IMG/VR virus record: IMGVR_UViG_3300032265_000032
Location: 1 to 35,776 of that record
Length of the DNA stretch: 35,776 nt
Strand: one strand, 5' to 3'
DNA from: a virus
Positions 1-35,776 of this stretch are shown piece by piece; position 1 is the first letter of the stretch; each line of letters starts with the position of its first letter. The notes under the pieces were generated by a model. It saw only the letters and a program-made list of their open reading frames with translations, was not told where the DNA came from and did no database searches. A program made the position numbers and the translations under genes.

Positions 1-123
1 GTAGGTGTAGGTAGGTTATATGTGTTTACAGATAAAAAGCCTGTAGGTGGTGTGTATGCAAATGGTTGTTGTCCAAAAGTAAAATTAACTGAATCTGTAG
101 CTTGATTGCCGTTCCAATCAGCA
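1..123. repeat. Direct terminal repeat, left copy
   Basis: These 123 bases are identical to 35654-35776. Both copies lie inside the same open frame of a tail-fibre gene, which becomes one uninterrupted 796-codon gene when the copies are merged. This shows that the contig closes on itself. The length is what a k-mer assembler leaves at the ends of a circular or circularly permuted molecule, so it need not be a physical terminal repeat of the virion DNA. Confidence 0.95.
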
Positions 124-1379: not shown

Positions 1380-2338
1380 TAAGCTACTCCTAAACTGCGA
1401 CCTTGTTCGTAAAGATTAGTACCATCACTTCTGAATACAAAGAAGTCTTTAGCTGATGCTGCTGTAGATAGTGTTGGTGCTGTTCCTGATGCCCATTTAA
1501 ATACACTATTCCATGTAATTGTTCTTGATCCTGTGCCATCTTGCACAATGCTAAGACCATAATAACCACCATTTACTAAATTTGTAGGTGCGTTAAATGT
1601 ACGATTACCACCTAATGTAACGGTTGCTACTTGTTGTGTGGATAAGTTCCAATCTATGTTTGCACCGTCTGTAAGTGTTGCATTTACAAAATATTGTTGA
1701 GCAGTATAGCCTTGTGATGTAGCAACACCTGCTACGATTGTACCAATATTCATACCAATATTGTTTTGAATACTTGTTAAGTCTATCACAGTTCCTGTAG
1801 AGTCCGCTGTGGAAGTTACGTTAGATCCTGTGTTTGGATAAGTAAATGTAGTTGTTGTAGGAACGGATGCAAGAGTTACATTTACAGCATTAAATCCTGC
1901 TGTAGTAATACCAGATAATGTAACTTCGTCACCAGCTGTAAAACCATGAGCAGTACCTGTAGTAATAGATGCTACGTTAGAAGCTCTTGATACGAATGTT
2001 ATAGATGCTCTTAAAGCACCAGTACCACCTTGAATAAGTGAAATAGGTGTAGTTAAAGCGTTTAGAGATGTGATGTCTGAGTTAGAACCAGATGCAGCTG
2101 CACCTAAGTTTGTTCTAGCTGTAGTTGTATTAGCAGATCCTGTACCGCCTGCTGCAACAGGAAGCGTATCTCCACTAGCACCAGATTGCAAGTCTTTAAC
2201 CTGAGCCATAAGTGTACGAATGGCATTATTAATACCAGAAGGTGCACATCCCTCATCAATGTTAATACCAGCTATGTCTGTATTTAACCCAGCACCTGTA
2301 GCGGTTGAAGCGTAATCACTAATCTTTGTTTTTGACAT
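1379..2338 (-). CDS. Tail fibre protein with HGF-type beta module and shared C-terminal domain
   Basis: The product has 319 residues. Residues 1-50 resemble fibre N-termini that attach to the virion. Residues 60-110 carry the collagen-like fibre motif (VAAGGTGSANTTTARTNLG, then SGSNSDITSLNALTTP). Residues 113-185 form a Thr/Val-rich beta module with GTAHGFTAGDEV, a motif that also occurs in the protein at 32551-34197. Residues 210-319 are a near-copy of residues 109-218 of the fibre protein at 3415-4071 (both have AQQYF, QQVATVT, GSRTITWN, SAKDFFVFRSDGTNLYEQG), so the C-terminal domain is duplicated. The gene is translationally coupled to the next fibre through a TAATG overlap. It is probably an appendage or receptor-binding component. 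Confidence 0.85.
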   Translation of the reverse strand: MSKTKISDYASTATGAGLNTDIAGINIDEGCAPSGINNAIRTLMAQVKDLQSGASGDTLPVAAGGTGSANTTTARTNLGAAASGSNSDITSLNALTTPISLIQGGTGALRASITFVSRASNVASITTGTAHGFTAGDEVTLSGITTAGFNAVNVTLASVPTTTTFTYPNTGSNVTSTADSTGTVIDLTSIQNNIGMNIGTIVAGVATSQGYTAQQYFVNATLTDGANIDWNLSTQQVATVTLGGNRTFNAPTNLVNGGYYGLSIVQDGTGSRTITWNSVFKWASGTAPTLSTAASAKDFFVFRSDGTNLYEQGRSLGVA

Positions 2339-2341
2339 CTT

Positions 2342-3415
2342 TTATCCTTGTTGTAACCATGTGTTTGAACCTTCTGATACATTATCCCAAGTATTAGAGC
2401 TTGGTGTTATATCACTCCAATCATTTCCACCTTGAGTCATAAGAGTCCAAGTATTATCACCTGTTGACATATCTGACCAAGATTCTGAACCTATAGGCAT
2501 TAAAGCCCATTCTTCACCTTGTATATAACCTTTTGCTGTTAAAGCTGTTTGAGCCACTACATAAGTTTTTGCTTTATAAATTGCATTAGCTTTAGCTAAC
2601 AATGTTGCATAAGCTAATATTTGTGCATTTGCATAGGCTGTATGACCACCAGAAGCAGTCATAGATGCACTACAATTAATATTGGCTGCACCGCTATTAA
2701 GTTTAGAACCTAATCCAGTTACGGTAGCAGGTGCTGCAATATTTGATGAAGCATAAGCACTAGAATAACCGCTTGCAGTTACAGAGCTTGATACATATAT
2801 AACTGTGCTATCGTAAGCATAAGAAAAGCCATTGGCTGTTAATGCTGTACTTGCTGCAATACTTGCACTTGACTTAGCTTGTGAGAAACCGTTAGCAGTT
2901 ATCGTTGTTTGTGCAGATACGCTTGTACTATCATATGCTGTGCTATAACCACTAGCTGTTAAGCTAGAAGGTGCTGATATACTTGCTGTTGCCTTAGCCT
3001 GTGAAAAGCCATTCGCTGTAACACTAGAACTTGCGTATATTAGCGTACTATCATAAGCATATGAGAATCCATTAGCTGTGATAGTTGTTGGTGCTGATAT
3101 GCTTGTAGCAGCATAAGCATAAGAAAAACCATTGCCAGTTACAGTAGAAGGTGCTGATATAGTAGCACTTGCTTTAGCCTGTGAAAAACCATTACTTGTT
3201 ACTGAAGCCGATGCCGCTATTGTTGCAGAATCGTATGCAGTAGAAAATCCATTACTTGTAACCGTAGCAGATGCAGCAATCGTAGCTGAATCATAAGCTG
3301 TAGAGAAACCATTAGCTGTTACGGTTGCGGATGCAGCTATACTTGACGCAGCATATTGTAAAACACCAGCTCTTGAGCTAAACGGTATTTGGGAAAATGT
3401 TGCTGACCCAAACAT
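2342..3415 (-). CDS. Repeat fibre protein: 14 x 20-residue repeats and C-terminal Trp repeats
   Basis: The product has 357 residues. After a 20-residue leader, residues 21-300 divide without gaps into 14 units of exactly 20 residues. The consensus is roughly [YK]-A/D-x-x-x-I-x-A-x-x-x-[VL]-T-A/S-x-G-[FY]-S-x-A, well kept in the first ten units and decaying in the last four. Residues 301-357 are five 10-residue units plus a 7-residue remnant, each with Trp at position 3 (for example NTWTLMTQGG, NDWSDITPSS). A regular Ala/Ser/Thr-rich beta repeat fits a rod or fibre shaft with a distinct tip. The gene sits between two fibres that share a C-terminal domain and starts with a TAATG overlap. I do not recognise a named family. 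Confidence 0.8.
   Translation of the reverse strand: MFGSATFSQIPFSSRAGVLQYAASSIAASATVTANGFSTAYDSATIAASATVTSNGFSTAYDSATIAASASVTSNGFSQAKASATISAPSTVTGNGFSYAYAATSISAPTTITANGFSYAYDSTLIYASSSVTANGFSQAKATASISAPSSLTASGYSTAYDSTSVSAQTTITANGFSQAKSSASIAASTALTANGFSYAYDSTVIYVSSSVTASGYSSAYASSNIAAPATVTGLGSKLNSGAANINCSASMTASGGHTAYANAQILAYATLLAKANAIYKAKTYVVAQTALTAKGYIQGEEWALMPIGSESWSDMSTGDNTWTLMTQGGNDWSDITPSSNTWDNVSEGSNTWLQQG
2345..2515 (-). repeat. Tandem 30-bp coding repeats (10-residue Trp units)
   Basis: This stretch encodes residues 301-357 of the repeat fibre: EEWALMPIGS, ESWSDMSTGD, NTWTLMTQGG, NDWSDITPSS, NTWDNVSEGS and the partial NTWLQQG. The spacing of Trp every 10 residues is exact. The DNA has diverged more than the protein. 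Confidence 0.85.
2516..3355 (-). repeat. Fourteen tandem 60-bp coding repeats
   Basis: The 840 bp encode residues 21-300 of the repeat fibre as 14 in-register 20-residue units. On the plus strand the recurring cores are seen as gagaaaccat, gaaaatccat or gaaaagccat (coding GFS) and gctgt[ta]a. The first three units in the coding direction (about 3176-3355) are closest to each other, which suggests recent expansion at the N-terminal end and decay at the C-terminal end. Confidence 0.9.
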
Positions 3416-4071
3416 TATGCTACACCTATACTACGACCTTGCTCATATAAGTTTGTACCGTCAGAACGGAATACAAAGAAATCCTTAGCAGAAGCTGTTG
3501 TTGATAATGTAGGAGCTGTACCACCAGCCCATTTAAACACAGCGTTCCATGTTATTGTTCGTGAACCTGTTGCATCTTGAATGACATTGAGTGCATAGAA
3601 TCCACCGTTGACCATACCTGTAGGTGCACCAAAGGTTCTATTACCAGCAATCGTTACCGTAGCCACTTGTTGAGTATCTACAGTCCATGACAATGTAGCA
3701 CCATCTGTAATTGTAGACGCACCAAAATACTGTTGAGCAGTAAAGTTCGTAGGTGCACCAGAAGCCACCGCATTGGTAGCTGGATAAGCACAGAATACGT
3801 TTTTAGTACCTGCACCTAATGTAACCACAGAACCAGCATTAGACGAAGCTAATATGGTTGTTCTGGCTAAGGTAGTGCCTGAGAGTGTATAAGTACCAAT
3901 ACCAACCTCCCAAGCATTGTTTGTATTATCTTCTATTACATAGTAGGTAGTATTATTGTTACCAATAGTAGAAAACGCTTGGAAGTTAGTTACTGCACCT
4001 GCTAATGTTAAAGTGCCAGTACCTGTGGTCGTGGTAGTTTCTTTTACTCTATCTTTTAAGATTAGAGCCAT
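3415..4071 (-). CDS. Tail fibre or appendage protein with conserved N-terminal domain and shared C-terminal domain
   Basis: The product has 218 residues. Residues 1-100 (LKDRVKETTTTTGTGTLTLA, WEVGIGTYT, GAGTKNVFCAYPA) match, from memory, an N-terminal domain common in appendage proteins of podoviruses. Residues 109-218 are paralogous to residues 210-319 of the fibre at 1379-2338. Two different N-termini carrying one C-terminal module suggest that the module is the functional tip and the N-termini are separate attachment points. It is coupled to the downstream repeat fibre by TAATG. Confidence 0.8.
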   Translation of the reverse strand: MALILKDRVKETTTTTGTGTLTLAGAVTNFQAFSTIGNNNTTYYVIEDNTNNAWEVGIGTYTLSGTTLARTTILASSNAGSVVTLGAGTKNVFCAYPATNAVASGAPTNFTAQQYFGASTITDGATLSWTVDTQQVATVTIAGNRTFGAPTGMVNGGFYALNVIQDATGSRTITWNAVFKWAGGTAPTLSTTASAKDFFVFRSDGTNLYEQGRSIGVA

Positions 4072-4080
4072 GAACTATCC

Positions 4081-4470
4081 TTAAGCTAATGATACGTTAA
4101 TGTTTGCTGTTGAGAATTGGAATACGTCACCAATATCAATAGTCTTAGAGTTTGTTAATGGTGAAAAGTATAGTAAGTTACCAGATGTTGCAGCATCATA
4201 GATACCCATATAAGTAACTGTACCCCATGAAGCTGTTGCTGTTGGGAATACTACGTTAGCACTATTAGATGTAGCACCAGATGAAGGTGCACTTAATGTA
4301 ACTGCTGTTCTAGCATAAGAACCACCAGATACTTCTGTACCTGTACCAGCTGCTGTAAGTGTTGTAGTAAATAAACCTACATAAACTGTTGTTGGTGCTG
4401 TATAAGCTGTGTTTCTTAAAGATACGTTTACTACTGCATTTTGTAAATATGTTGACATTTGTGATGCCAT
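4081..4470 (-). CDS. Phage tail fibre-like structural protein (Gp80-type family)
   Basis: The product has 129 residues and is rich in beta-forming and small residues. The order of motifs (TTVYVGLFTT, GTEVSGGSYART, FPTATASWGTVTYMGIYDAA, GNLLYFSPLTNSKTIDIGDVF) is that of a short structural family found in many tailed phages and often annotated as tail fibre protein. It lies between the adaptor and the fibres, which supports a tail-tip or appendage role. The family identification is from memory of its motifs; the exact position in the virion is inferred. Confidence 0.75.
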   Translation of the reverse strand: MASQMSTYLQNAVVNVSLRNTAYTAPTTVYVGLFTTTLTAAGTGTEVSGGSYARTAVTLSAPSSGATSNSANVVFPTATASWGTVTYMGIYDAATSGNLLYFSPLTNSKTIDIGDVFQFSTANINVSLA

Positions 4471-4482
4471 GTTTGTTACTCC

Positions 4483-5103
4483 TTATCGTTTTGCTATTTG
4501 AATTGTCATTGGAACGCTGGCATACTCACCACCCTCATCCGATGCTGACGCTGAATCTAAACCTTTTTGATACAAACCTGCCCATGTTTGAATACGGTCA
4601 TCATTCATGAGATATGGTTCTGCCTCTGCTAGTGATCCATATAATAATAGATCAGGTGTATAAGCCATAAATACATTAGAAGCATTTGTTGAGCTTAAAT
4701 ACGGAGGTGCAGCATAGTAAAGAATCTGTAGTTGATAATTACTATCTGGGATAGGTGAGAATTGGAACTCACTTGCTAATACTGTATAAGCTCTTGGTAA
4801 AGCCTGTGTATAAGCATATGTATCTCTGTTAAGGTTACTAGGGCTATAGTAGTTTAATGCCTGAATAGGTGTCGTATTAATGTGTATATCACGAATAGCT
4901 AGAAAGTCTGTAGGCAATGCTACTGTATTATCACCTTGTGCCATCGTAGTTGTAGATGACTTTAGCATTGTACGCAATCTTAGATCACGTCTTAATCTAT
5001 TCTCACATAACTGAATAAATGTAGGGATCTGTGCTGATAGATCTGACCTAGCTAAGTAGTCAGCTATAGTAGACTGTAAGTCTGTGTAATTGGTTATTGC
5101 CAT
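4483..5103 (-). CDS. Head-tail adaptor protein (SU10 adaptor-like)
   Basis: The product has 206 residues. The opening NYTDLQSTIADYLARSDL, then FIQLCENRLRRDLRLRTM, a beta segment with LPTDFLAIRDIHINTTP, and a C-terminal helix with LLLYGSLAEAEPYLMND form the pattern of phage adaptor proteins that dock under the portal ring. It lies downstream of the capsid gene, as in SU10-type podoviruses. The stop of the upstream 107-residue gene is adjacent, so the two are probably co-translated. Confidence 0.8.
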   Translation of the reverse strand: MAITNYTDLQSTIADYLARSDLSAQIPTFIQLCENRLRRDLRLRTMLKSSTTTMAQGDNTVALPTDFLAIRDIHINTTPIQALNYYSPSNLNRDTYAYTQALPRAYTVLASEFQFSPIPDSNYQLQILYYAAPPYLSSTNASNVFMAYTPDLLLYGSLAEAEPYLMNDDRIQTWAGLYQKGLDSASASDEGGEYASVPMTIQIAKR

Positions 5104-5426
5104 TATACTTTGCCTTCTCTTGTACGGAAGAATCTGTTATCAGGGTTATTTAAAAACTCTCTAAATCTTTTGTGGTCAATCACATGGAATCCACGCAATA
5201 TACCTTTTTTATGTAAATCATCCATCACCGCTAATGGAATAGATGCGACCTTATTATCAAATAATCCGCTACCCCATTTAGTCCTACGATCAGTCTGATT
5301 TCTTTTTCTTGCATTATCTTCTAGGATTGCTGTTACATCTTGTGATGTATTTAGGATAAGACCATCATCGCTTTCATAAGCAGTTATAGTCTTAACATCG
5401 TCTTTTTTAAAGATTAATCCAGCCAT
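5103..5426 (-). CDS. Conserved small virion-cluster protein, unknown function
   Basis: The product has 107 residues and is basic and soluble. Visible blocks are LIFKKDDVKTITAYESDDGLI, RKRNQTDRRTKWGSGLFDNK, and a C-terminal DHKRFREFLNNPDNRFFRTREG. Genes with this composition often sit between capsid and adaptor genes in podoviruses, but I know no assigned function. A head-closure or capsid-associated role is only inferred from position. The gene follows a hairpin located after the capsid gene. Confidence 0.7.
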   Translation of the reverse strand: MAGLIFKKDDVKTITAYESDDGLILNTSQDVTAILEDNARKRNQTDRRTKWGSGLFDNKVASIPLAVMDDLHKKGILRGFHVIDHKRFREFLNNPDNRFFRTREGKV

Positions 5427-5458
5427 TTTATACCTGTAAGTTATTGAATTAGGGGAGA

Positions 5459-5481
5459 AGCCCTACCACAAAGATAGGGCT
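5459..5481 (-). terminator. Hairpin after the major capsid gene
   Basis: A perfect 7-bp stem, AGCCCTA/TAGGGCT, with a 9-nt loop lies just past the capsid stop codon in the leftward transcript. No T-run follows, so it is more likely a partial terminator or an RNA 3'-end stabiliser that sets capsid mRNA level than a full stop. Confidence 0.55.
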
Positions 5482-5496
5482 AATCCGATAGTAATA

Positions 5497-6450
5497 CTAG
5501 CTTAAATCGCCAATAATACCTTGTGCAGCTTCGTTCTTAACTTCTAATGTATATTCACAAAGAAGTTGAGTGTTTTGTGAGTCACCTACGATAGCCAATT
5601 CATTTGTTTGGAATGGTCGTAAGTAAGCTACTGAAACATACTCTGGGTCAAGAACAAAAATGTTTTCGCCACCGTCAGCATCTGTGTCGCTTGCTAAGAA
5701 GCGATCAGGAACTACAGACAATGTACCGAAGTCTGACATATAAACGTCAGCAGCACCGATGATTGTTGTAGGAGCATCAGCAGGAGCAGCAAAACGTTGT
5801 GCAGCGATACCAGCAAAAGCTGATACGTTTTGTTTTTGTTTTGGAGTAACCAAGAATACTGTTGGGCTACCACCAGCAACGAAAACTTGTCTTACTACTG
5901 ATTGAAGCATAGCTTCTGTAAGAGCACGATTTGTACCGTCTACTTTAGCAGTTGTACCGTTAGAACCAGCTACACCAGATGTACCTAATGAGTAGTTGGT
6001 TGATGTCCATGCTTGTAAACCACCTAATAAACGTGCAGATGTTGAATTACCAGCATTAGCAGTTTGGTTAGATAAAAGAATAGCTTCCATATCTCGTTTA
6101 ATTTCAGCTGCTGCTTTAGCTAATTGGTAAGCCTTTTCAGATTTACGACCAGCTTTAAGTACTGACTCTAAAGTGCCAGAAACTTTAACAGTTTTTTGTG
6201 AGATTTGAGTTCTGTTACCAACACGAGTAGTAGCAGCAAGAGTTGCTGAAGAAGCATCAGCACCGTCAACCGCAGCATTGCTAAGGTTTACAGAAGCTAA
6301 TGTATCTTTTTGCCATTCATGATAAACAGCAGTTGCTTTTGTTTTGCCAACAGTAGACATAAATGGTGTGTCTGTTGGAGAGATATTGTAAATCACATCA
6401 GATAGGTCTTCTCTAATACCTACAGCTGATTGGGTTTGAAATGTTGCCAT
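5497..6450 (-). CDS. Major capsid protein (SU10-type, HK97 fold family)
   Basis: The product has 317 residues. The N-terminus GIREDLSDVIYNISPTDTPF and the block VYHEWQKDTLA are characteristic of the SU10 major capsid family (formerly DUF5309). The C-terminal part has EYVSVAYLRPFQTNELA and ends with a beta segment (LLCEYTLEVKNEAAQGII). The position directly after the scaffold gene and before the adaptor is standard. There is no visible protease gene or delta-domain prosequence, so maturation cleavage is not indicated. Together with the P22-like portal this points to a podovirus. Confidence 0.9.
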   Translation of the reverse strand: MATFQTQSAVGIREDLSDVIYNISPTDTPFMSTVGKTKATAVYHEWQKDTLASVNLSNAAVDGADASSATLAATTRVGNRTQISQKTVKVSGTLESVLKAGRKSEKAYQLAKAAAEIKRDMEAILLSNQTANAGNSTSARLLGGLQAWTSTNYSLGTSGVAGSNGTTAKVDGTNRALTEAMLQSVVRQVFVAGGSPTVFLVTPKQKQNVSAFAGIAAQRFAAPADAPTTIIGAADVYMSDFGTLSVVPDRFLASDTDADGGENIFVLDPEYVSVAYLRPFQTNELAIVGDSQNTQLLCEYTLEVKNEAAQGIIGDLS

Positions 6451-6465
6451 TTGTTAATCTTCCTT

Positions 6466-7461
6466 TTATAAGAATTGTTCTAGTACACTTGCGGCATCAG
6501 AAATTTTACCTGATTGACGCAACCTGTTTGATTGTTGTCTGACGACATCTGATTCAGTAACCTTATTGCCACCTGTGCCAGCTTGTAGCATCTTAGGAGC
6601 TTGGGATACTTTCTTAGTTACAGATGGTTTAGCCTTTTGTAACTTGTCATACATCATAGCCTTATGTAAAGTAAGAACATGACGTGAATCATATACAGAA
6701 CCAAGTTCCTCGTCTGTGAAACCTAATTCTTTGCCATAAGAACGAATCTCTTTACGGAGGTTTTCGCCTTTGACCTTGTCAGAAAACTCTGGTAGGACTT
6801 GTGCTAGTTTTGCTGCTTCTTGAGCAATTCTATTTTGGATGGCTGCGGCTTGCTCAGATTGTTGCTCATTGGCAATTCTGGCTTGCTCAGCACGAACAGC
6901 GGCTAACTGTTCCTTTTGCTCTGATAATTCAGCTACTTTAACTGCATAACCTATTGGGTCGTTTTCTTTTAAATATTGCAAGTCCTCAGCTCTAGGTTGA
7001 GATTGTGATAGTAATTGGTCTATCGCTTGCAATCGTTGAGCATAACTATCACGAGCATACTTAGCTTCTTCTATAGCTTGACGTTCAGCTTCAACAGCTT
7101 TACGTTGTTCAGCTACTTCAGTAGTCTTTTTAGTATAGTCTGCACCAAGTTGATAGCCTTTGATTAATTCAGATAAGGGAACTTCCTTTTCTTCGCCTGC
7201 CGCTTTCACGACATACTTTGGTTCTTCCTCTTGATCTGTGTTATCAAATTCATCTTGAGTATCTTCAGATTCACTTTCAGCTTCAGCTTCTTGTGGTTCT
7301 GCTTCTACTTCCTCAGCTTGTACTTGTTCTTCTACTTCACCTTGTGGTTGCTCGTTTAAGTCCTCTGGTGTGTCAAATAAACTTTCTAATGCGTTGGCTG
7401 CTTGATTTACAGTATTAAGCTCGCCACTTCCACTTTGTGGAGTCATGGTTGTTTCACTCAT
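6466..7461 (-). CDS. Capsid scaffolding protein
   Basis: The product has 331 residues. Residues about 38-80 are strongly acidic (Glu/Gln/Asp-rich), residues about 105-225 form long Ala/Glu/Gln-rich heptad-like helices, and the C-terminus is basic (KPSVTKKVSQAPKML). Acidic N-terminus, coiled coil and basic C-terminus directly upstream of the capsid gene fit a scaffolding protein that binds capsid subunits through its C-terminal end during prohead assembly. The sequence is not conserved enough to name a family; the call rests on architecture and context. Confidence 0.8.
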   Translation of the reverse strand: MSETTMTPQSGSGELNTVNQAANALESLFDTPEDLNEQPQGEVEEQVQAEEVEAEPQEAEAESESEDTQDEFDNTDQEEEPKYVVKAAGEEKEVPLSELIKGYQLGADYTKKTTEVAEQRKAVEAERQAIEEAKYARDSYAQRLQAIDQLLSQSQPRAEDLQYLKENDPIGYAVKVAELSEQKEQLAAVRAEQARIANEQQSEQAAAIQNRIAQEAAKLAQVLPEFSDKVKGENLRKEIRSYGKELGFTDEELGSVYDSRHVLTLHKAMMYDKLQKAKPSVTKKVSQAPKMLQAGTGGNKVTESDVVRQQSNRLRQSGKISDAASVLEQFL

Positions 7462-7509
7462 TTGTATTTCCTAATTCCTCTATGGGAGGTATTCCAATTA
7501 TAGAATCTT

Positions 7510-7740
7510 CTATAATATCTTAAGTGCTTTGGCTTTAATGTTGCCTGTTTGGGCAATTGATTCTAGCTCATTCACTAAATCGTTTAACACTCTTAAGTTA
7601 CGATATGCAGTTTCTCTATCGTCTGCTGCGTAGTCTTCAGAGTTTATAAAATCGTTTGTATATCTTAATCGTAATGTATCAACAACCTCTTTAAAGCTGT
7701 CGTTTACTAATATCTTTTCTATGTCTGTTCTATCTATCAT
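7510..7740 (-). CDS. Small helical protein of the head gene cluster
   Basis: The product has 76 residues and is mainly helical and acidic (IEKILVNDSFKEVVDTLRLRY, DRETAYRNLRVLNDLVNELE). It has the feel of small phage proteins between portal and scaffold genes, but no function is known to me. Its ATG overlaps the stop of the upstream gene as ATGA, so it is translationally coupled. The stop codon lies inside an 18-bp palindrome at 7498-7515. Confidence 0.7.
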   Translation of the reverse strand: MIDRTDIEKILVNDSFKEVVDTLRLRYTNDFINSEDYAADDRETAYRNLRVLNDLVNELESIAQTGNIKAKALKIL

Positions 7741-8390
7741 GTTGTATTAGCGTGAGCATTGTTATTGGCTTGGTAATTAGCATAGCTAGGTGAACTTAAT
7801 AATGATCCATTGCCTAAAAATCTACCTGCACCTGAACTATCATTTACATTAAATGCAGTATTACCAGCTACTTGTGGCATAGATGCTAATAAACCCATAA
7901 GTGGGAATAGTTGATTAATAGTAGGAACTTGATCTGCTGCACCTGCTACTGGAAGTTTAATAGTAGCATCAGCAGATGAAGCAGAAGATTTATTTAATGA
8001 ATCTCCAATATAATTTCTATTTCCAGAAACTCCACTACCATTAGATCTGCCATTCATAAAACCAAAGAAATTTGGTGATGACTCTTGTGTATAATATTGA
8101 CCTTTTTGTGGGTCATAATATACTTGACCACCTTTATTATTAGTAAAATTATTATCAGATGATGATGTAGCTGTAGATCCAGTAGGATTATAGTTATAAT
8201 ACTGAGTAGCACTTGAATCTGGTTGATGATACACAACATCTTGTGCATTATTAATTAGGTTTGCCATATTACCATTATTAGACAATGGAGAATAATTAGG
8301 TGCAATATAAGGATTAGATGCAATAGTTTGTATTGCATTAGAAACAGCTCCGTTATTTACACTATTATTTTTATTAAATATATCACCCAT
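7737..8390 (-). CDS. Low-complexity Asn/Ser-rich protein downstream of portal
   Basis: The product has 217 residues rich in Asn, Ser, Tyr and Gly, with no recognisable fold and one Gly-containing hydrophobic patch (INQLFPLMGLLASMPQVAG). Its ATG lies 8 nt inside the end of the portal gene, and its own stop overlaps the next start as ATGA. Tight coupling to the portal suggests a virion or assembly role. An ejection or head-interior protein is possible but unproven. Confidence 0.65.
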   Translation of the reverse strand: MGDIFNKNNSVNNGAVSNAIQTIASNPYIAPNYSPLSNNGNMANLINNAQDVVYHQPDSSATQYYNYNPTGSTATSSSDNNFTNNKGGQVYYDPQKGQYYTQESSPNFFGFMNGRSNGSGVSGNRNYIGDSLNKSSASSADATIKLPVAGAADQVPTINQLFPLMGLLASMPQVAGNTAFNVNDSSGAGRFLGNGSLLSSPSYANYQANNNAHANTT

Positions 8391-10443
8391 GATATTGTCC
8401 TTGTAACTTGGATATTTTGTCTATAGAGTCTACAATCATCTTAGCTTGATCTGTTCTGATCTTCTCGCCTTGAGCTGCTGTATTTACTTGTAGCTTGAAT
8501 TGTTCCATCTGCATTTCTAATTGTTGCTTAGCGGCTTCTAATCTTAACTTCTCAGCTTCTATTTGGTTCTTAGCTTGATCGCTTTGTGCTCTGATTTGAG
8601 CTTGTGTTACTTGAGCTTGAGCTAGGATTTTAGTTGATTCAATAGTAGGATCAGGTTGAGGCTGTTGTTGAGCAGCTTGTTGAGCTAACTCTGCTGCCTT
8701 CTGATCGTCAATCTCATTCATGAAGCTAGATGAATCTCTGAATCCTGCCATGTGAATAAACTTAGCTAGTGTATCTCTATACTGTTTAAGATTAACTAAT
8801 GGATTACTTAAACCATATTGTTGGATGATCTGTTCTTGTTTACCTAAAATCATTTGTGTAGTAGCTAATTGCTCTTGTTTAGAACCGTTACCTAAACCTA
8901 CATGGATAGTCACTTCGTATTGGTCATGCCATTCACGAGGATTAAATGCCACAAACTTGCCATTAATGCGTAATGTACGTTCTTTATCTTGGTACTTGCA
9001 TAGTAGGTGTAGGATACCTTTGAAAAGCGATTTAACACCTGTTTCTGCAAAGATACGAGCTATTAATTCTAGCTTACCTTGTGCTGCATTAGCCATAGTT
9101 GCCACAGCAGTTGCAGTAGCATTTTGTAATACGTTAGGATCTAAGCCTTGATTCATGTCACTTACACCAGTACGCTTAGCTTGCACTTGGTCTAAGTAGT
9201 CCATCATTGGGAATGATTGGTTAGCTGTAGACTGTACTGTTAATGGTACGATTGCACTAGGATCTTTAACACGAATGACACCGCCAGCAGTAGAGGTAAG
9301 TAAGTCATCTAAGTTTACTTTGCCTTCAACAGCAGCGACACGATAGTTATTAGTTAGGTATAAATTATCTAACATTTGGCGAAGGATTGTAGACTTGGTT
9401 AATTGTAAGTCAATGACCTTATCTGCTAAACCTTGACCATAGAATTTGTGTGGGATTGGTGATGGGCATACAGAATAGAATGGCACATAGTCACATTCCT
9501 CGTCTGATAGAATAGTGTTACCAGCATATAATACTCTGCGTAACTCAGCTACACCGTCATCATTTTGGTCTACCTTAATATAGCACTCATAAACCTCAAT
9601 AAGCTGCATTGTATGGTCTTGAGATTGCATATCTAGTGGTTGTTCACCACGAGTATAACGTGCAATTCTTTCTGGGCTAAACTGTAGTGCATCACCTGTT
9701 GGCAATGTATCTACAACCTTAGCTTCAAAACCCATAGCAATTAGGTCTGATCTTGTTACCATTCTACGTTGAGCACAGAATGGAGCATCTTCAATCTTGC
9801 GAGCACGTTTAGATATTAAGAATTCCTCTGGTGGAACATTCTCAACCACAACCTTGCCTAAATTAATTTTCTTGCGTAGCTTAACATCATGAGAAACTGT
9901 TTTAGTTTCCATGCCTGTCATCTCATCTGCTACTATTACTTCTTTTGTATTTTGACTAACTACTTCTGTTTCAGGATCTTGTAATAAGTATGTGAGTTCA
10001 TCGTCTGTTAGGTTTGCATACTTCTCATAGTTGACATCAATCTTATCTTGCCAGTATGCTTTTACTACACCATTCTTTTCTAATAGTGCATCTTTAAACC
10101 AATTATGAAGGATAATGAAGCCATCGTTGTCTTTATAAAACACATGATTAGCTAGTGTTGTTGCTTGGTCGGCAAATGGTTCGTCACCTTCACGAACTGG
10201 CTCAAACTTAACTACATCATCAGATGCAGAAAATACACGAATGATTTGTGGTATAGCACCGTCAATTACTTCAGCTACTTCTTTAGTAACAATAGAAGAT
10301 CTACCTTCTACTTCGTTACCATAAGGCTGTCCGATATAATATTCTAATGCTTTTTGACGGTCATAAATAGTTTCCGTCATCACATAGCCAATGGCATTGT
10401 GAATCTCAGCTTGAATAATTGACTTTAATTTAACTTGTTCCAT
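8383..10443 (-). CDS. Portal protein (P22-like)
   Basis: The product has 686 residues, the size expected for P22-type portals. The N-terminal part has YDRQKALEYYIGQPYGNE and EVAEVIDGAIPQIIRVFSAS, and the central part has NVPPEEFLISKRARKIEDAP and ECDYVPFYSVCPSPIPHKFY, all typical of this portal family in Bcep22- and P22-like podoviruses. Residues about 585-686 are a Gln/Ala-rich coiled coil, like the barrel helices of P22-type portals. It forms the dodecameric DNA channel at one capsid vertex. The gene abuts the terminase (TAA then ATG with no gap). Confidence 0.9.
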   Translation of the reverse strand: MEQVKLKSIIQAEIHNAIGYVMTETIYDRQKALEYYIGQPYGNEVEGRSSIVTKEVAEVIDGAIPQIIRVFSASDDVVKFEPVREGDEPFADQATTLANHVFYKDNDGFIILHNWFKDALLEKNGVVKAYWQDKIDVNYEKYANLTDDELTYLLQDPETEVVSQNTKEVIVADEMTGMETKTVSHDVKLRKKINLGKVVVENVPPEEFLISKRARKIEDAPFCAQRRMVTRSDLIAMGFEAKVVDTLPTGDALQFSPERIARYTRGEQPLDMQSQDHTMQLIEVYECYIKVDQNDDGVAELRRVLYAGNTILSDEECDYVPFYSVCPSPIPHKFYGQGLADKVIDLQLTKSTILRQMLDNLYLTNNYRVAAVEGKVNLDDLLTSTAGGVIRVKDPSAIVPLTVQSTANQSFPMMDYLDQVQAKRTGVSDMNQGLDPNVLQNATATAVATMANAAQGKLELIARIFAETGVKSLFKGILHLLCKYQDKERTLRINGKFVAFNPREWHDQYEVTIHVGLGNGSKQEQLATTQMILGKQEQIIQQYGLSNPLVNLKQYRDTLAKFIHMAGFRDSSSFMNEIDDQKAAELAQQAAQQQPQPDPTIESTKILAQAQVTQAQIRAQSDQAKNQIEAEKLRLEAAKQQLEMQMEQFKLQVNTAAQGEKIRTDQAKMIVDSIDKISKLQGQYHG

Positions 10444-17586: not shown

Positions 17587-17747
17587 AACAAATAGCTGAA
17601 ATTTTAAAAGAATTAAATGCAGAATTAAAATTAGATAACGATAAATGGGAGAAAGCACAAAATGAGTCAACAACAATTTTACGATCAAGTAATGATGGAA
17701 CAACATCAACAAGAATTACAACAACAGGAGAGAAAAGTGAACTATAA
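17580..17747 (+). CDS. Small protein (55 residues) upstream of annealing protein
   Basis: The frame ATG 17580 to TAA 17747 opens with a helix, MLKQIAEILKELNAELKLDN, then a Thr-rich tail that lies over the start region of the DUF1071 gene. A GGAG lies 6 nt before the start. The tail (residues 29-55) is low-complexity and may only be the cost of overlap. Function unknown. Confidence 0.5.
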   Translation: MLKQIAEILKELNAELKLDNDKWEKAQNESTTILRSSNDGTTSTRITTTGEKSEL

Positions 17748-18138
17748 CGAACTTCGCAAGATTAACGTATCTGACCATATTGAAAAAAAGAATGGTCTAT
17801 CATACTTATCATGGGCTTGGGCTGTAGATACACTTTTACAGCAAGATCCACAGGCTACATGGTCTTATGGTGAACCTAAACAATTTGGTGAAACGCTTAT
17901 GGTATTTTGCACAGTTAATGCTTTTGGTAAATCTATGACTTCTCAATTACCAGTACTTAACTTTAGAAACCAAGCTATTCCTAACCCAGATGCTATGGCT
18001 GTAAATACAGCTATGCAAAGATGTTTAGCTAAGGCTATTGCATTGCATGGTATCGGTTTATACATCTATAGCGGTGAGGATATTCCAGAGTCAGAACAGC
18101 CAACATTAAAAGCTGTATCTAATAAGGATTTTCTATGA
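17662..18138 (+). CDS. Single-strand annealing protein, DUF1071 (Sak3-like)
   Basis: The product has 158 residues from the ATG at 17662. The core KINVSDHIEKKNGLSYLSWA, then FCTVNAFGKSMTSQLPVLN and NPDAMAVNTAMQRCLAKAIA and GIGLYIYSGEDIP, is the DUF1071 family of phage recombinases. An in-frame GTG at 17737 has a better-placed Shine-Dalgarno (AGGAGAG, 6 nt) than the ATG (GGAG at 10 nt) and would remove a Gln-rich 25-residue leader, giving 133 residues; either start may be used. The protein anneals complementary single strands made by the YqaJ nuclease encoded next, to which it is coupled by ATGA. Confidence 0.85.
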   Translation: MSQQQFYDQVMMEQHQQELQQQERKVNYNELRKINVSDHIEKKNGLSYLSWAWAVDTLLQQDPQATWSYGEPKQFGETLMVFCTVNAFGKSMTSQLPVLNFRNQAIPNPDAMAVNTAMQRCLAKAIALHGIGLYIYSGEDIPESEQPTLKAVSNKDFL

Positions 18139-18761
18139 TTGAACAACGCACAGAAGAGTGGTTTCAACAAAGACTTGGCAAGGTGACAGCATCCAGAATA
18201 TCGGATGTTATCGCCAAGACCAAGACAGGTATATCTACATCACGTCAAAACTATTTAGTTCAGCTTGTATCAGAACGCTTAACAGGCAAGAAAGGCGATA
18301 GCTATGTTAATCAAGCGATGCTAGATGGTATTGAAAGAGAAGGTGCTGCTAGGGCACTTTATATGCTTAATAATGATGTTTCTGTGATAGAAGTAGGTTT
18401 CTTTGACCATCCTGTTATTGCAAATAGTGGTGCTAGTCCTGATGGAGCTGTTGAGTCAAGTGAGTCTGGTAAATATGCTGGTCTTATTGAGATAAAGTGT
18501 CCCATAGAAAGTACCCATACTTCTACGTTAATGAGCAAATCAGTTCCTAGCAAATACATTCCACAGATACAATGGCAAATGGCTTGCACAAATGCCAAGT
18601 GGGTAGATTTCGTGAGCTATAACCCTAATTTTCCTGTAGAATTACAGCTATTCGTATCTAGGGTTGAAAAAAACGATGAGTTAATCAAGGAGCTAGAAGC
18701 TGAAGTTATTAAGTTCTTAGATGAAGTAGATCAAATAATTATTAAACTTAAGGAGCAATAA
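18135..18761 (+). CDS. YqaJ-like recombination exonuclease
   Basis: The product has 208 residues, with the lambda-exonuclease fold. It begins EQRTEEWFQQRLGKVTASRIS, the typical YqaJ opening. The catalytic set is visible: E68 in DGIEREGAARALY, D103 in SGASPDG, E119 and K121 in GLIEIKCP, and QIQWQM near 144-149. It resects double-stranded DNA ends to give 3' single strands for the DUF1071 protein. The start overlaps the preceding stop as ATGA. The C-terminal helix (residues about 175-208) is Lys/Glu-rich. Confidence 0.9.
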   Translation: MIEQRTEEWFQQRLGKVTASRISDVIAKTKTGISTSRQNYLVQLVSERLTGKKGDSYVNQAMLDGIEREGAARALYMLNNDVSVIEVGFFDHPVIANSGASPDGAVESSESGKYAGLIEIKCPIESTHTSTLMSKSVPSKYIPQIQWQMACTNAKWVDFVSYNPNFPVELQLFVSRVEKNDELIKELEAEVIKFLDEVDQIIIKLKEQ

Positions 18762-18762
18762 G

Positions 18763-18999
18763 ATGGCTGAATATGATAATACCAATACCTTTGCATTATT
18801 TAAAAATGATAAAGGTGATAATCCTAAACGACCAGACTACACAGGTACTGCAAATGTAGATGGTATTGAGTTTAGAATTAGCGGTTGGATTCGTGAAGGT
18901 AAGAATGGTAAGTTTATTAGCGGATCTGTGCAGCTAAAAGATAACAATTCCGCAGGTGCTACTAAGGGTGCTAAGGAAGATGAGGATGTTCCTTTTTAG
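18763..18999 (+). CDS. Small SSB-like protein with acidic tip
   Basis: The product has 78 residues. The body (TFALFKNDKGDNPKRPDYTG, then DGIEFRISGWIREGKNGKF) resembles small phage proteins of the DUF736-like/OB-like type. The C-terminus ends EDEDVPF, close to the DDDIPF tip by which bacterial SSB recruits partners. Following an annealing protein and an exonuclease, a single-stranded-DNA-binding role is well supported by context. AAGGAG lies 7 nt before the start. A stem-loop overlaps its stop codon. Confidence 0.75.
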   Translation: MAEYDNTNTFALFKNDKGDNPKRPDYTGTANVDGIEFRISGWIREGKNGKFISGSVQLKDNNSAGATKGAKEDEDVPF

Positions 19000-19032: not shown

Positions 19033-19104
19033 TTATTTATTCATTACGTACATTGTCACTTCAAAGCCAAAACGCATTTCATTACAAGCTGGAATTGTCC
19101 ACAT
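19033..19104 (-). CDS. pqqA: PqqA, PQQ precursor peptide (23 residues)
   Basis: ATG 19104 to TAA 19033 on the minus strand, against the surrounding genes, gives 23 residues, the same length as Klebsiella PqqA. It opens MWTIPA and contains RFGFEVTMYV (residues 11-20). Glu15 and Tyr19 stand at the positions that PqqE, with PqqD as peptide chaperone, cross-links and that end up as the PQQ skeleton. AAAGGAG lies 8 nt upstream, and a TATAAT box is at 19138-19143. No pqqB-E genes are present, so the peptide would be processed by host enzymes. It could raise PQQ supply for host dehydrogenases such as methanol dehydrogenase during infection. Identity is strongly supported by sequence; benefit and host are inferred. 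Confidence 0.9.
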   Translation of the reverse strand: MWTIPACNEMRFGFEVTMYVMNK

Positions 19105-19195
19105 GGTCTATTCTCCTTTCTTTAGATTTATGTTAGCATTATACGCTTATGTGGCTTATGCTACGACTGTAAAACCATTAGAAAGGACTGTGTAA
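19103..19195 (+). CDS. Possible signal-peptide-like ORF in frame with the SleB hydrolase
   Basis: The frame ATG 19103 to TAA 19195 gives 30 residues: MVYSPFFRFMLALYAYVAYA then TTVKPLERTV. It has the shape of a secretion signal (basic residue, hydrophobic core, AYA cleavage-like motif). It is in the same frame as the hydrolase starting at 19199, separated by one TAA and one sense codon. It overlaps the pqqA start and promoter on the other strand. It may be a real tiny membrane protein, a detached signal peptide, or chance. Confidence 0.4.
   Translation: MVYSPFFRFMLALYAYVAYATTVKPLERTV
19138..19143 (-). promoter_or_regulatory. -10 box (TATAAT) for pqqA
   Basis: A perfect TATAAT on the minus strand would start transcription near 19131 and give a leader of about 26 nt carrying AAAGGAG before the pqqA ATG. 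No good TTGACA lies 16-18 nt upstream, so strength is uncertain. Confidence 0.5.
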
Positions 19196-19198
19196 TAC

Positions 19199-19579
19199 AT
19201 GGAAGCACATAGTTTAGAACTTGATATAGCTTGTTATGCTACTGCGGTATATCATGAGGTAAATACTCGTTCATTAGAAGAAAAGTTAGGAGTCATTAAT
19301 GTTATTCGCAATCGCCTTAACTCTGGTCGCTGGGGTTATTCTGTATGCTCTGTTGTTTACGCTAATGGTCAGTTTGCTGTTAGAGAAGAAAGCCACTATC
19401 CAGTTGATGAAAAGGCTTATCTTCAAACTAAACTACTGGTACTTGATACAATTGTTTTTAATAAATACGCAAATCCAGTTGGCAAGGCTCTTTATTTCCA
19501 TGATGACTCTATGCAAGCAAAAGCTCAATGGTTTGGTAAAAAGAAAATGGTTAAAATAGGAAAAATGATTTTTTATTAG
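19199..19579 (+). CDS. SleB-like cell wall hydrolase
   Basis: The product has 126 residues. The arrangement YHE20V, GVINVIRNRL, SVCSVVYANGQFA and AYLQTKLLVLDTI to GKALYFHDDSMQAK is that of Hydrolase_2 (SleB) peptidoglycan hydrolases, with Glu20 as probable catalytic acid. It is short, a bare catalytic domain without a binding domain. It has no signal peptide in its own frame, though a signal-like ORF lies just upstream in the same frame. The location in the early/recombination arm, far from the holin and lysozyme, suggests a role other than final lysis, or an auxiliary one. Confidence 0.8.
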   Translation: MEAHSLELDIACYATAVYHEVNTRSLEEKLGVINVIRNRLNSGRWGYSVCSVVYANGQFAVREESHYPVDEKAYLQTKLLVLDTIVFNKYANPVGKALYFHDDSMQAKAQWFGKKKMVKIGKMIFY

Positions 19580-34641: not shown

Positions 34642-35776
34642 TTATCTTGCGTTAGAGTATTTAAATGGGTTTTCTGCAAAAGCCATGTATATATATGTTG
34701 CACCATTAGAATTAAATCCTGTATAAGATGAATTTCTCATTTTAAAACCATTTGATAATATATCCATAACTGGTGTATCATTTGTTTCAGCACCACTAGT
34801 ATTTGGTCTTAAATCAAGTCCTGCAGCATTATATATATCTCTAGATGTATCTTCTATATACCAATCTTGTGTTGAACCAGTAGCTTTAATTAAAATAAAT
34901 TTAGGTCTAAACCCTGTATATACAAAAGTTCCATCTGTAGAACCATTACCTGTATAAGAACCAAATTTACTAAACCCTGCTATTTCTGCAAAACAATAGG
35001 CTACATAAGTTGCAGCAGAACTATTAAATGAATTATCAGTTCCAATACTAAATACAGTTAAAGTAGGTGATGTATTATTTAAATATGTAGAAGATGTACC
35101 AAATGCTGCTGTTGTATTAATATTTAATACTCCAGTATTGCCTAATGAAGCATGATACACAGCCGAGTTATTTGTTAAACTTCTAGCTTTCCATATAATC
35201 ATTTTAGGTGCAACACCTAAACCATGTCCTACTGTTGCATTAGCACCTGTTCCTGTATAAGTCACAATACTAAATCCAGCACTTGCATTTACAGATACAG
35301 TAGATGTAATAGAGCCATTAGTGTTAGATGATGATGAGCCTTGTCCAGCTTGCCATTGCCATGCTGCATAAGTAGCACTTGTATTGTTATATACTGTGCT
35401 TGCACCTACTGTAAATCCGTTAGCATTAAATGCAGTCATACCTGTTAAATCTGTTGTTTCTGCGGCTGTAGAATTTGATATAATTGCCTTAGTAGCACCA
35501 CGAACAGAATCAGTTAATTTATTGTCTGTAGCAGCACTTCTTGACTTAATCCATACCAAGTCAGGTTTAAAAGATCCTGCATTAGTAATAGATTGACCAG
35601 TTAAATTACCTGTATATAGCGTTGCATCCATATACTTATTACCTTGAAGCAATGTAGGTGTAGGTAGGTTATATGTGTTTACAGATAAAAAGCCTGTAGG
35701 TGGTGTGTATGCAAATGGTTGTTGTCCAAAAGTAAAATTAACTGAATCTGTAGCTTGATTGCCGTTCCAATCAGCA
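34642..35776 (-). CDS. Large tail fibre, C-terminal part (DUF7483-like); begins at 1379 across the circular join
   Basis: This is the remainder of the 796-residue fibre that begins at 1379. The frame enters without a stop through the repeated 123 bases; a TTG at 35652 that could be mistaken for a start is an internal Leu codon. Residues about 470-796 carry MDATLYTGNLTGQSITNAGS, NANGFTVGASTVYNNTSATY, AAWQWQAG, GVAPKMIIWKAR, KFGSYTGNGSTDGTFVYTGF and YIYMAFAENPFKYSNAR, the pattern of the DUF7483-type phage fibre domain. The gene downstream is a fibre-assembly-like protein. Confidence 0.85.
   Translation of the reverse strand, partial: ADWNGNQATDSVNFTFGQQPFAYTPPTGFLSVNTYNLPTPTLLQGNKYMDATLYTGNLTGQSITNAGSFKPDLVWIKSRSAATDNKLTDSVRGATKAIISNSTAAETTDLTGMTAFNANGFTVGASTVYNNTSATYAAWQWQAGQGSSSSNTNGSITSTVSVNASAGFSIVTYTGTGANATVGHGLGVAPKMIIWKARSLTNNSAVYHASLGNTGVLNINTTAAFGTSSTYLNNTSPTLTVFSIGTDNSFNSSAATYVAYCFAEIAGFSKFGSYTGNGSTDGTFVYTGFRPKFILIKATGSTQDWYIEDTSRDIYNAAGLDLRPNTSGAETNDTPVMDILSNGFKMRNSSYTGFNSNGATYIYMAFAENPFKYSNAR
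35654..35776. repeat. Direct terminal repeat, right copy
   Basis: Identical over 123 bases to 1-123; see the left copy. The two copies keep the reading frame of the fibre gene, as expected for a genome that is circular or circularly permuted. Confidence 0.95.

Follow-up and report, generated by a model that had tools for sequence, protein, structure and literature searches.

The window, as we term the whole stretch of viral DNA analysed here (35,776 nucleotides), contains a small gene, pqqA, on its minus strand at positions 19033-19104 (stop codon included). The open reading frame extends from an ATG to the stop and codes for the 23-residue peptide MWTIPACNEMRFGFEVTMYVMNK, which a preliminary description had taken for PqqA, the precursor peptide of PQQ. 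Profile searches bear out this identity: the peptide matches the Pfam family PF08042 (PqqA) with an E-value of 5.9e-8 and 33.0 bits (curated cut-off 21.1), as well as the NCBIfam equivalog model TIGR02107 with an E-value of 4.8e-8 and 32.7 bits (curated cut-off 20). A search of PHROGs with the same peptide gave no match. By the curated models, the product is thus a true PqqA precursor; cross-linking and conversion to PQQ are inferred. The enzyme PqqE cross-links Glu16 and Tyr20 of PqqA (Methylorubrum numbering; PMC10906245). The core of the window peptide features a Glu and a Tyr spaced E-x-x-x-Y, and by position, invariance and this chemistry the pair expected to be cross-linked is Glu15 (codon 19060-19062, minus strand) and Tyr19 (codon 19048-19050, minus strand). 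The peptide shares with the PqqA family of Methylophilaceae the length of 23 residues, the MWxxP N-terminus, the R-x-G-x-E-[VI]-T-x-Y core and scores above the curated cut-offs. Unlike that family, it is encoded by a phage, has no pqqE that we could find and is preceded by a phage-type -10 box. Moreover, its leader departs from the family consensus by the unusual residues I4, C7 and N8, which counts against a function as substrate.

The gene is located between two plus strand genes, a single-strand DNA-binding protein (SSB) gene assigned by PHROG (18763-18999), which is convergent with pqqA, and a cell wall hydrolase gene (Hydrolase_2/endolysin; 19199-19579), which is divergent from it. The SSB gene ends a recombination cluster that also comprises the plus strand genes for a Sak single-strand annealing protein (17662-18138) and a YqaJ/RecE-type recombination exonuclease (18135-18761). 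With genes for recombination, SSB, lysis and terminase around it and homologues in host metabolism, pqqA has the position and kinship of a viral auxiliary metabolic gene; its expression in infection and its effect on the host are inferred. A Shine-Dalgarno sequence, AAGGAG, is found on the minus strand at 19113-19118, 8 nt upstream of the ATG, and a putative -10 box, TATAAT, at 19138-19143 (minus strand) within the stretch GCGTATAAT (19130-19150), which is conserved at related phage loci. No good -35 element was seen together with this box, and a consensus promoter scan did not report it for want of an adequate -35 alongside. The single nearby minus strand match of that scan (19059-19032) falls within the gene itself and was discounted.

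The closest relatives of the window phage are the Manatee Spring phage ctXG6705, with 45 predicted open reading frames in common at a mean identity of 57% (a count that includes a few frames overlapping real genes), and the OM43 phage Venkman, with 25 shared proteins at a mean of 50% and a TerL identity of 72%. Fewer proteins are shared with the LD28 phage P19250A (6, mean 37%) and with MEP301 (5, mean 54%). As judged from shared core genes and synteny, the window phage is a Venkman-like Methylophilales podovirus. Since Venkman and ctXG6705 are closest and the next TerL relatives, the HTVC010P-type Pelagibacter phages, reach only about 45%, the host inferred for the window phage is likely a member of the Methylophilaceae. 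In Venkman (EXVC282S; MT375522), which differs from the window phage in its marine OM43 host, pqqA is likewise antisense by the Sak/YqaJ cluster. The gene is present in the DNA of Venkman, where it lacks an annotation, and it is absent from the paper on this phage.

In both ctXG6705 and Venkman, pqqA occupies the equivalent gap, and the encoded peptides are 87% and 83% identical to the window copy, respectively. In these two phages, in MEP301 and in the window, it adjoins the recombination cluster and runs antisense to the genes on either side; in P19250A it adjoins the homologous exonuclease gene and has the same direction as the latter. Across ctXG6705, Venkman, P19250A and MEP301, PqqA is 83-87% identical to the window copy, compared with averages of 37-57% for the other shared proteins, whose maxima are 79.6, 71.6, 41.6 and 67.0%, respectively. 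In each of the four genome comparisons, PqqA is thus the best conserved of the shared proteins. For a peptide of 23 residues a single comparison is weak evidence, yet all four agree.

Environmental sequences were surveyed by scanning IMG/VR with degenerate DNA patterns. The pattern MWxxP.....[RS]xGxE[VIM]TxY retrieved at least 120 contigs, and although it stops at residue 19, all listed matches (119 contigs and the window) are exactly 23 residues long. An AGGA or GGAG motif is present no more than 16 nt upstream of 113 of the 120 listed copies, compared with 5.8% of random positions. The recurrence of the 23-residue length and of the upstream motif is far beyond chance. The Gly13 codon is GGA or GGG in 10 of the 119 contigs of the listed sample, and a scan restricted to this subset still gave at least 120 contigs; in the listed GGA/GGG set, GAG is used for Glu15 in 10 of 120, and the scan combining GGA/GGG with GAG gave a complete count of 27. 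These figures suggest a total of approximately 3,900-4,000 pqqA contigs in IMG/VR, with a rough range of 1,500 to 9,000; the two fractions rest on ten matches each, and a few contigs may be bacterial. The gene is therefore carried by many hundreds of environmental phages, and probably by thousands. Homologues of reference methylophages accompany 261 of the 291 listed loci and are spread over all references, the T4-like assignment being broad. The immediate neighbours of pqqA represent 47 gene families on the upstream side and 60 on the downstream side, which shows that its genomic position varies widely. Two of the PqqA-encoding viral contigs, L031 (356 kb) and L399 (340 kb), are of jumbo-phage size.

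Given a mere 72 nt in an intergenic gap and no expression data, the frame might be a fragment of host DNA or an accidental small open reading frame without function in the phage. We give this idea hardly any credence. It does not account for a gene that has been kept in the corresponding gap in both ctXG6705 and Venkman, encodes the most conserved protein in four comparisons, is preceded by ribosome-binding sites and is found in many unrelated neighbourhoods. In addition, the frame is open in 244 of 244 distinct sequences, and a pN/pS of 0.33 was obtained for the codons not fixed by the search pattern, the fixed positions having been left out of the codon statistics as biased. As pS is near saturation (0.66), this ratio is merely a sign of constraint; taken as a family of sequences, phage pqqA is under purifying selection.

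Among cultured phages, a tblastn search located pqqA in nine Methylophilales phage isolates (P19250A, Venkman, MEP301, MEP401, MEP402 and four Melnitz phages) in addition to ctXG6705, confirming the earlier proposal that relatives carry the same overlooked gene. The copies of five of the nine isolates were re-scored and exceed the TIGR02107 cut-off. The carriers comprise Venkman, P19250A and MEP301, the Zobellviridae MEP401 and MEP402 and the Kyanoviridae phages termed Melnitz, and hence the carriers among Methylophilales phage isolates span at least three unrelated lineages. Six named relatives whose hosts are Pelagibacter or Rhodoferax (HTVC010P, HTVC106P, Lederberg, HTVC008M, Mosig and P26218) served as a control and gave no match, and neither did two other phages from Manatee Spring whose hosts are unknown. 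Within this sample, the presence of pqqA in cultured phages follows the host and not the phage lineage; the named Methylophilales or Methylophilaceae phages MEP431-434, MG-MTP1 and RSA-MFP1 were outside the sample and may lack the gene, and the sequence of HIM624-A is partial, covering only the structural and packaging module. Matches to Vibrio phages (43% identity, E-value 4) were judged to be due to chance. Two tblastn matches to “Acinetobacter phage MD-2021a” were rejected, as they belong to a bacterial-type pqqABCDE operon adjoining ppk. The record concerned (CAKLQF020000010.1, 104210-112263) holds ppk and pqqBCDE in bacterial operon order and is probably host chromosome mislabelled as phage.

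In the deposited isolate records, pqqA is either unannotated or covered by a spurious “hypothetical protein” on the opposite strand, as in Melnitz (MZ577095, 74848-74943, minus strand) and ctXG6705 (MW202481, 2067-2195, minus strand), where these frames hide the real gene. The default minimum gene length of Prodigal is 90 nt, which would explain why a 72-nt gene has been missed in annotations.

Among phage pqqA copies antisense to the gene upstream of them, 48 of 66 distinct sequences have a TATAAT box at a distance of no more than 90 nt, compared with an expectation of 13.6 (maximum 22) in dinucleotide shuffles. When the SSB-flanked lineage to which the window belongs is left aside, the antisense copies still possess the box upstream in 22 of 35 cases (6.9 in shuffles). 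Co-directional copies, in contrast, show no enrichment (15 of 116 versus 14.6 in shuffles). The sequences are related, and the counts therefore do not represent independent events. Many members of the window's lineage share an unchanged GCGTATAAT, including some with a different leader following it. On these grounds, and without expression data, antisense phage pqqA copies appear to have their own transcription start. The phage stretch resembles GCGTATAGT, which is located upstream of several host pqqA copies (e.g., L141, L256 and L270), and to go by this similarity, a host promoter may have given rise to that of the phages.

Enzymes of PQQ synthesis do not accompany the phage gene. PqqE was not detected above the cut-off in any of 36 phage records, in agreement with the substrate-only arrangement put forward in the preliminary description; two weak radical SAM matches (27.7 and 22.2 bits, cut-off 381) were rejected as PqqE. 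In the Methylophilaceae, i.e., the presumed host family (the individual host being inferred), pqqA was found in 149 of 150 genomes, with a median of 4 copies and two or more in 141, and pqqE exceeded the cut-off in 57 of 60 genomes at about one per genome. These counts agree with the remark that Methylophilaceae harbour 3-12 pqqA genes, while the other pqq genes are typically single-copy (PMC4109929). With about one pqqE and several pqqA genes in the hosts and no PqqE in the phage records tested, the phages add what their hosts multiply, namely the consumed substrate. Stand-alone pqqA copies also occur in the hosts themselves: in a PQQ-producing methylotroph, pqqA3-5 lack adjacent enzyme genes, as does the phage gene, and are scattered in the genome, and such copies are expressed, some of them well (PMC9851590). 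They differ from the phage copies in being chromosomal, and TATAAT is found upstream of only 1 of 171 bacterial pqqA copies, in contrast to most antisense phage copies.

A PQQ-related gene does occur beside pqqA on one viral contig, L050 (IMGVR_UViG_3300025120_009955; 72 kb), which encodes a PQQ alcohol/methanol dehydrogenase above the TIGR03075 cut-off (G159:C1:34049-35731). This contig resembles a Lake Baikal phage in combining PqqA and a PQQ-type methanol dehydrogenase on one genome. Phage PqqA was reported in 2020 for the Lake Baikal phage VP_266 together with methanol dehydrogenase and was proposed to raise methanol oxidation (PMC7678222). VP_139 and VP_266, with their methanol dehydrogenase, PqqA and radical SAM genes, are like the window in that PqqA is encoded by a presumed Methylophilaceae phage. 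They are T4-like, however, and pair PqqA with methanol dehydrogenase, whereas PqqA stands alone in the window and in most records tested, including small short-tailed and Zobellviridae phages.

The absence of the enzymes from the phage records is also compatible with a peptide that occupies host PqqD and PqqE and thereby shuts down PQQ synthesis or host methanol metabolism. PqqA, PqqD and PqqE form a ternary complex (PMC10906245), which an excess of peptide could titrate. From such an inhibitor one would expect the loss of one or both cross-linked residues. Yet, when codons 15 and 19 were left free in the search pattern, Glu15 and Tyr19 were encoded in 120 of 120 listed IMG/VR matches, and all 151 collected copies matching this pattern encode both residues. 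Furthermore, many phage peptides are identical to the host substrate (83 of 291 have an identical counterpart among the bacterial PqqA peptides compared), and the pairing of PqqA with a PQQ alcohol/methanol dehydrogenase in L050 and the Lake Baikal phage fits raising rather than blocking methanol oxidation. Conservation of Glu and Tyr could also serve binding without turnover. The decoy function, which the preliminary description had offered as the alternative, is accordingly disfavoured and in our opinion very unlikely, but it is not excluded. Of the four outcomes by which the preliminary description would have been refuted, three turned out in its favour: the family match is significant, close relatives possess the gene, and both residues are retained throughout the listed homologues. 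As to the fourth, minus strand transcription is inferred, from an upstream -10 box of the kind enriched at antisense copies.

In our view, phage pqqA is instead likely to be an auxiliary metabolic gene of the substrate-only kind, which feeds the PQQ pathway of the host and keeps methanol dehydrogenase supplied, processing and expression being inferred. One PqqA is consumed per PQQ. During infection, the phage would transcribe pqqA from its own promoter, and host PqqD and PqqE would cross-link Glu15 and Tyr19 of the phage peptide, upon which a host protease, PqqB and PqqC would complete PQQ. The phage copy would replace or raise the supply of the peptide consumed one for one, while host transcripts decay. 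PQQ-dependent methanol dehydrogenase, including newly made enzyme, would in this way stay loaded with its cofactor, so that the flow of energy and carbon could continue. In doing so, the phage would copy the design of its host, which combines one set of PQQ enzymes with several scattered pqqA genes. In an experiment cited in PMC9851590, a cell extract turned added PqqA peptide into PQQ at 70-80%, which supports the view that existing enzymes can convert added peptide. In Acetobacter, overexpression of pqqAB increased PQQ by only 29%, compared with eightfold for pqqABCDE (PMC7936290), and the gain from precursor alone may therefore be modest. We found no measurements of transcript, peptide or PQQ for any of these phages. 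One study grew OM43 in a medium that contained 1 nM PQQ (PMC9004378).

The PQQ supplied might also benefit the phage outside methanol oxidation, be it through another dehydrogenase, through redox or oxidative-stress protection or through a regulatory role of PqqA. PQQ also serves other dehydrogenases, and some viral contigs with divergent PqqA types have unknown hosts. In cultured phages, on the other hand, presence of the gene tracks methylotroph hosts, and the sole other PQQ-related gene seen codes for methanol dehydrogenase; we regard a benefit of this kind as unlikely, albeit worth keeping in mind. The divergent types occur in the viral loci L032, L069, L087, L376 and L378, e.g., the enterobacterial-looking MWKKPAFIDMRLGLEVTLYISNR, and suggest contigs with other hosts or bacterial contamination.

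Apart from the Lake Baikal report, the one detailed account in the literature searched, a 2026 reservoir study counts pqqA among viral genes (PMC13188868). Phage PqqA goes unmentioned in the open-access papers dealing with Venkman, Melnitz, MEP301 and MEP401/402, and in the open-licence PMC literature we found no report of substrate-only pqqA in isolates, of its breadth, of its promoter or of the Glu/Tyr invariance. As far as this literature was searched, these four features appear to be new. We lean, by a small degree only, towards the wider proposition that Methylophilaceae phages of at least three unrelated lineages repeatedly took up bare PqqA, that PQQ supply and methanol oxidation of infected methylotrophs are governed by its widespread dosage from phages, and that metabolic genes too short for the 90-nt floor of common gene callers have been overlooked as a class. 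If true, an enzyme-free substrate gene of 72 nt, among the smallest auxiliary metabolic genes possible, would be common in phages killing abundant marine and freshwater methanol oxidisers, and for PQQ synthesis phages would need to top up the consumed peptide, not the enzymes. Auxiliary metabolic gene surveys relying on callers with a 90-nt minimum would miss such genes systematically. A test system is at hand in the cultured OM43 and LD28 phages with unannotated pqqA.

Two minor observations concern the genomes themselves. P19250A_0031 (KX815270, 28452-29108), annotated as a diguanylate cyclase/phosphodiesterase, is 42% identical over 209 amino acids to the YqaJ exonuclease of the window, and judged by this similarity its annotation looks wrong. 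Finally, both ends of the window (1-120 and approximately 35655-35776) encode the same stretch, ADWNGNQATDSVNFTFGQQPFAYTPPTGFLSVNTYNLPTP, which suggests that the genome is complete and has a direct repeat at its termini.
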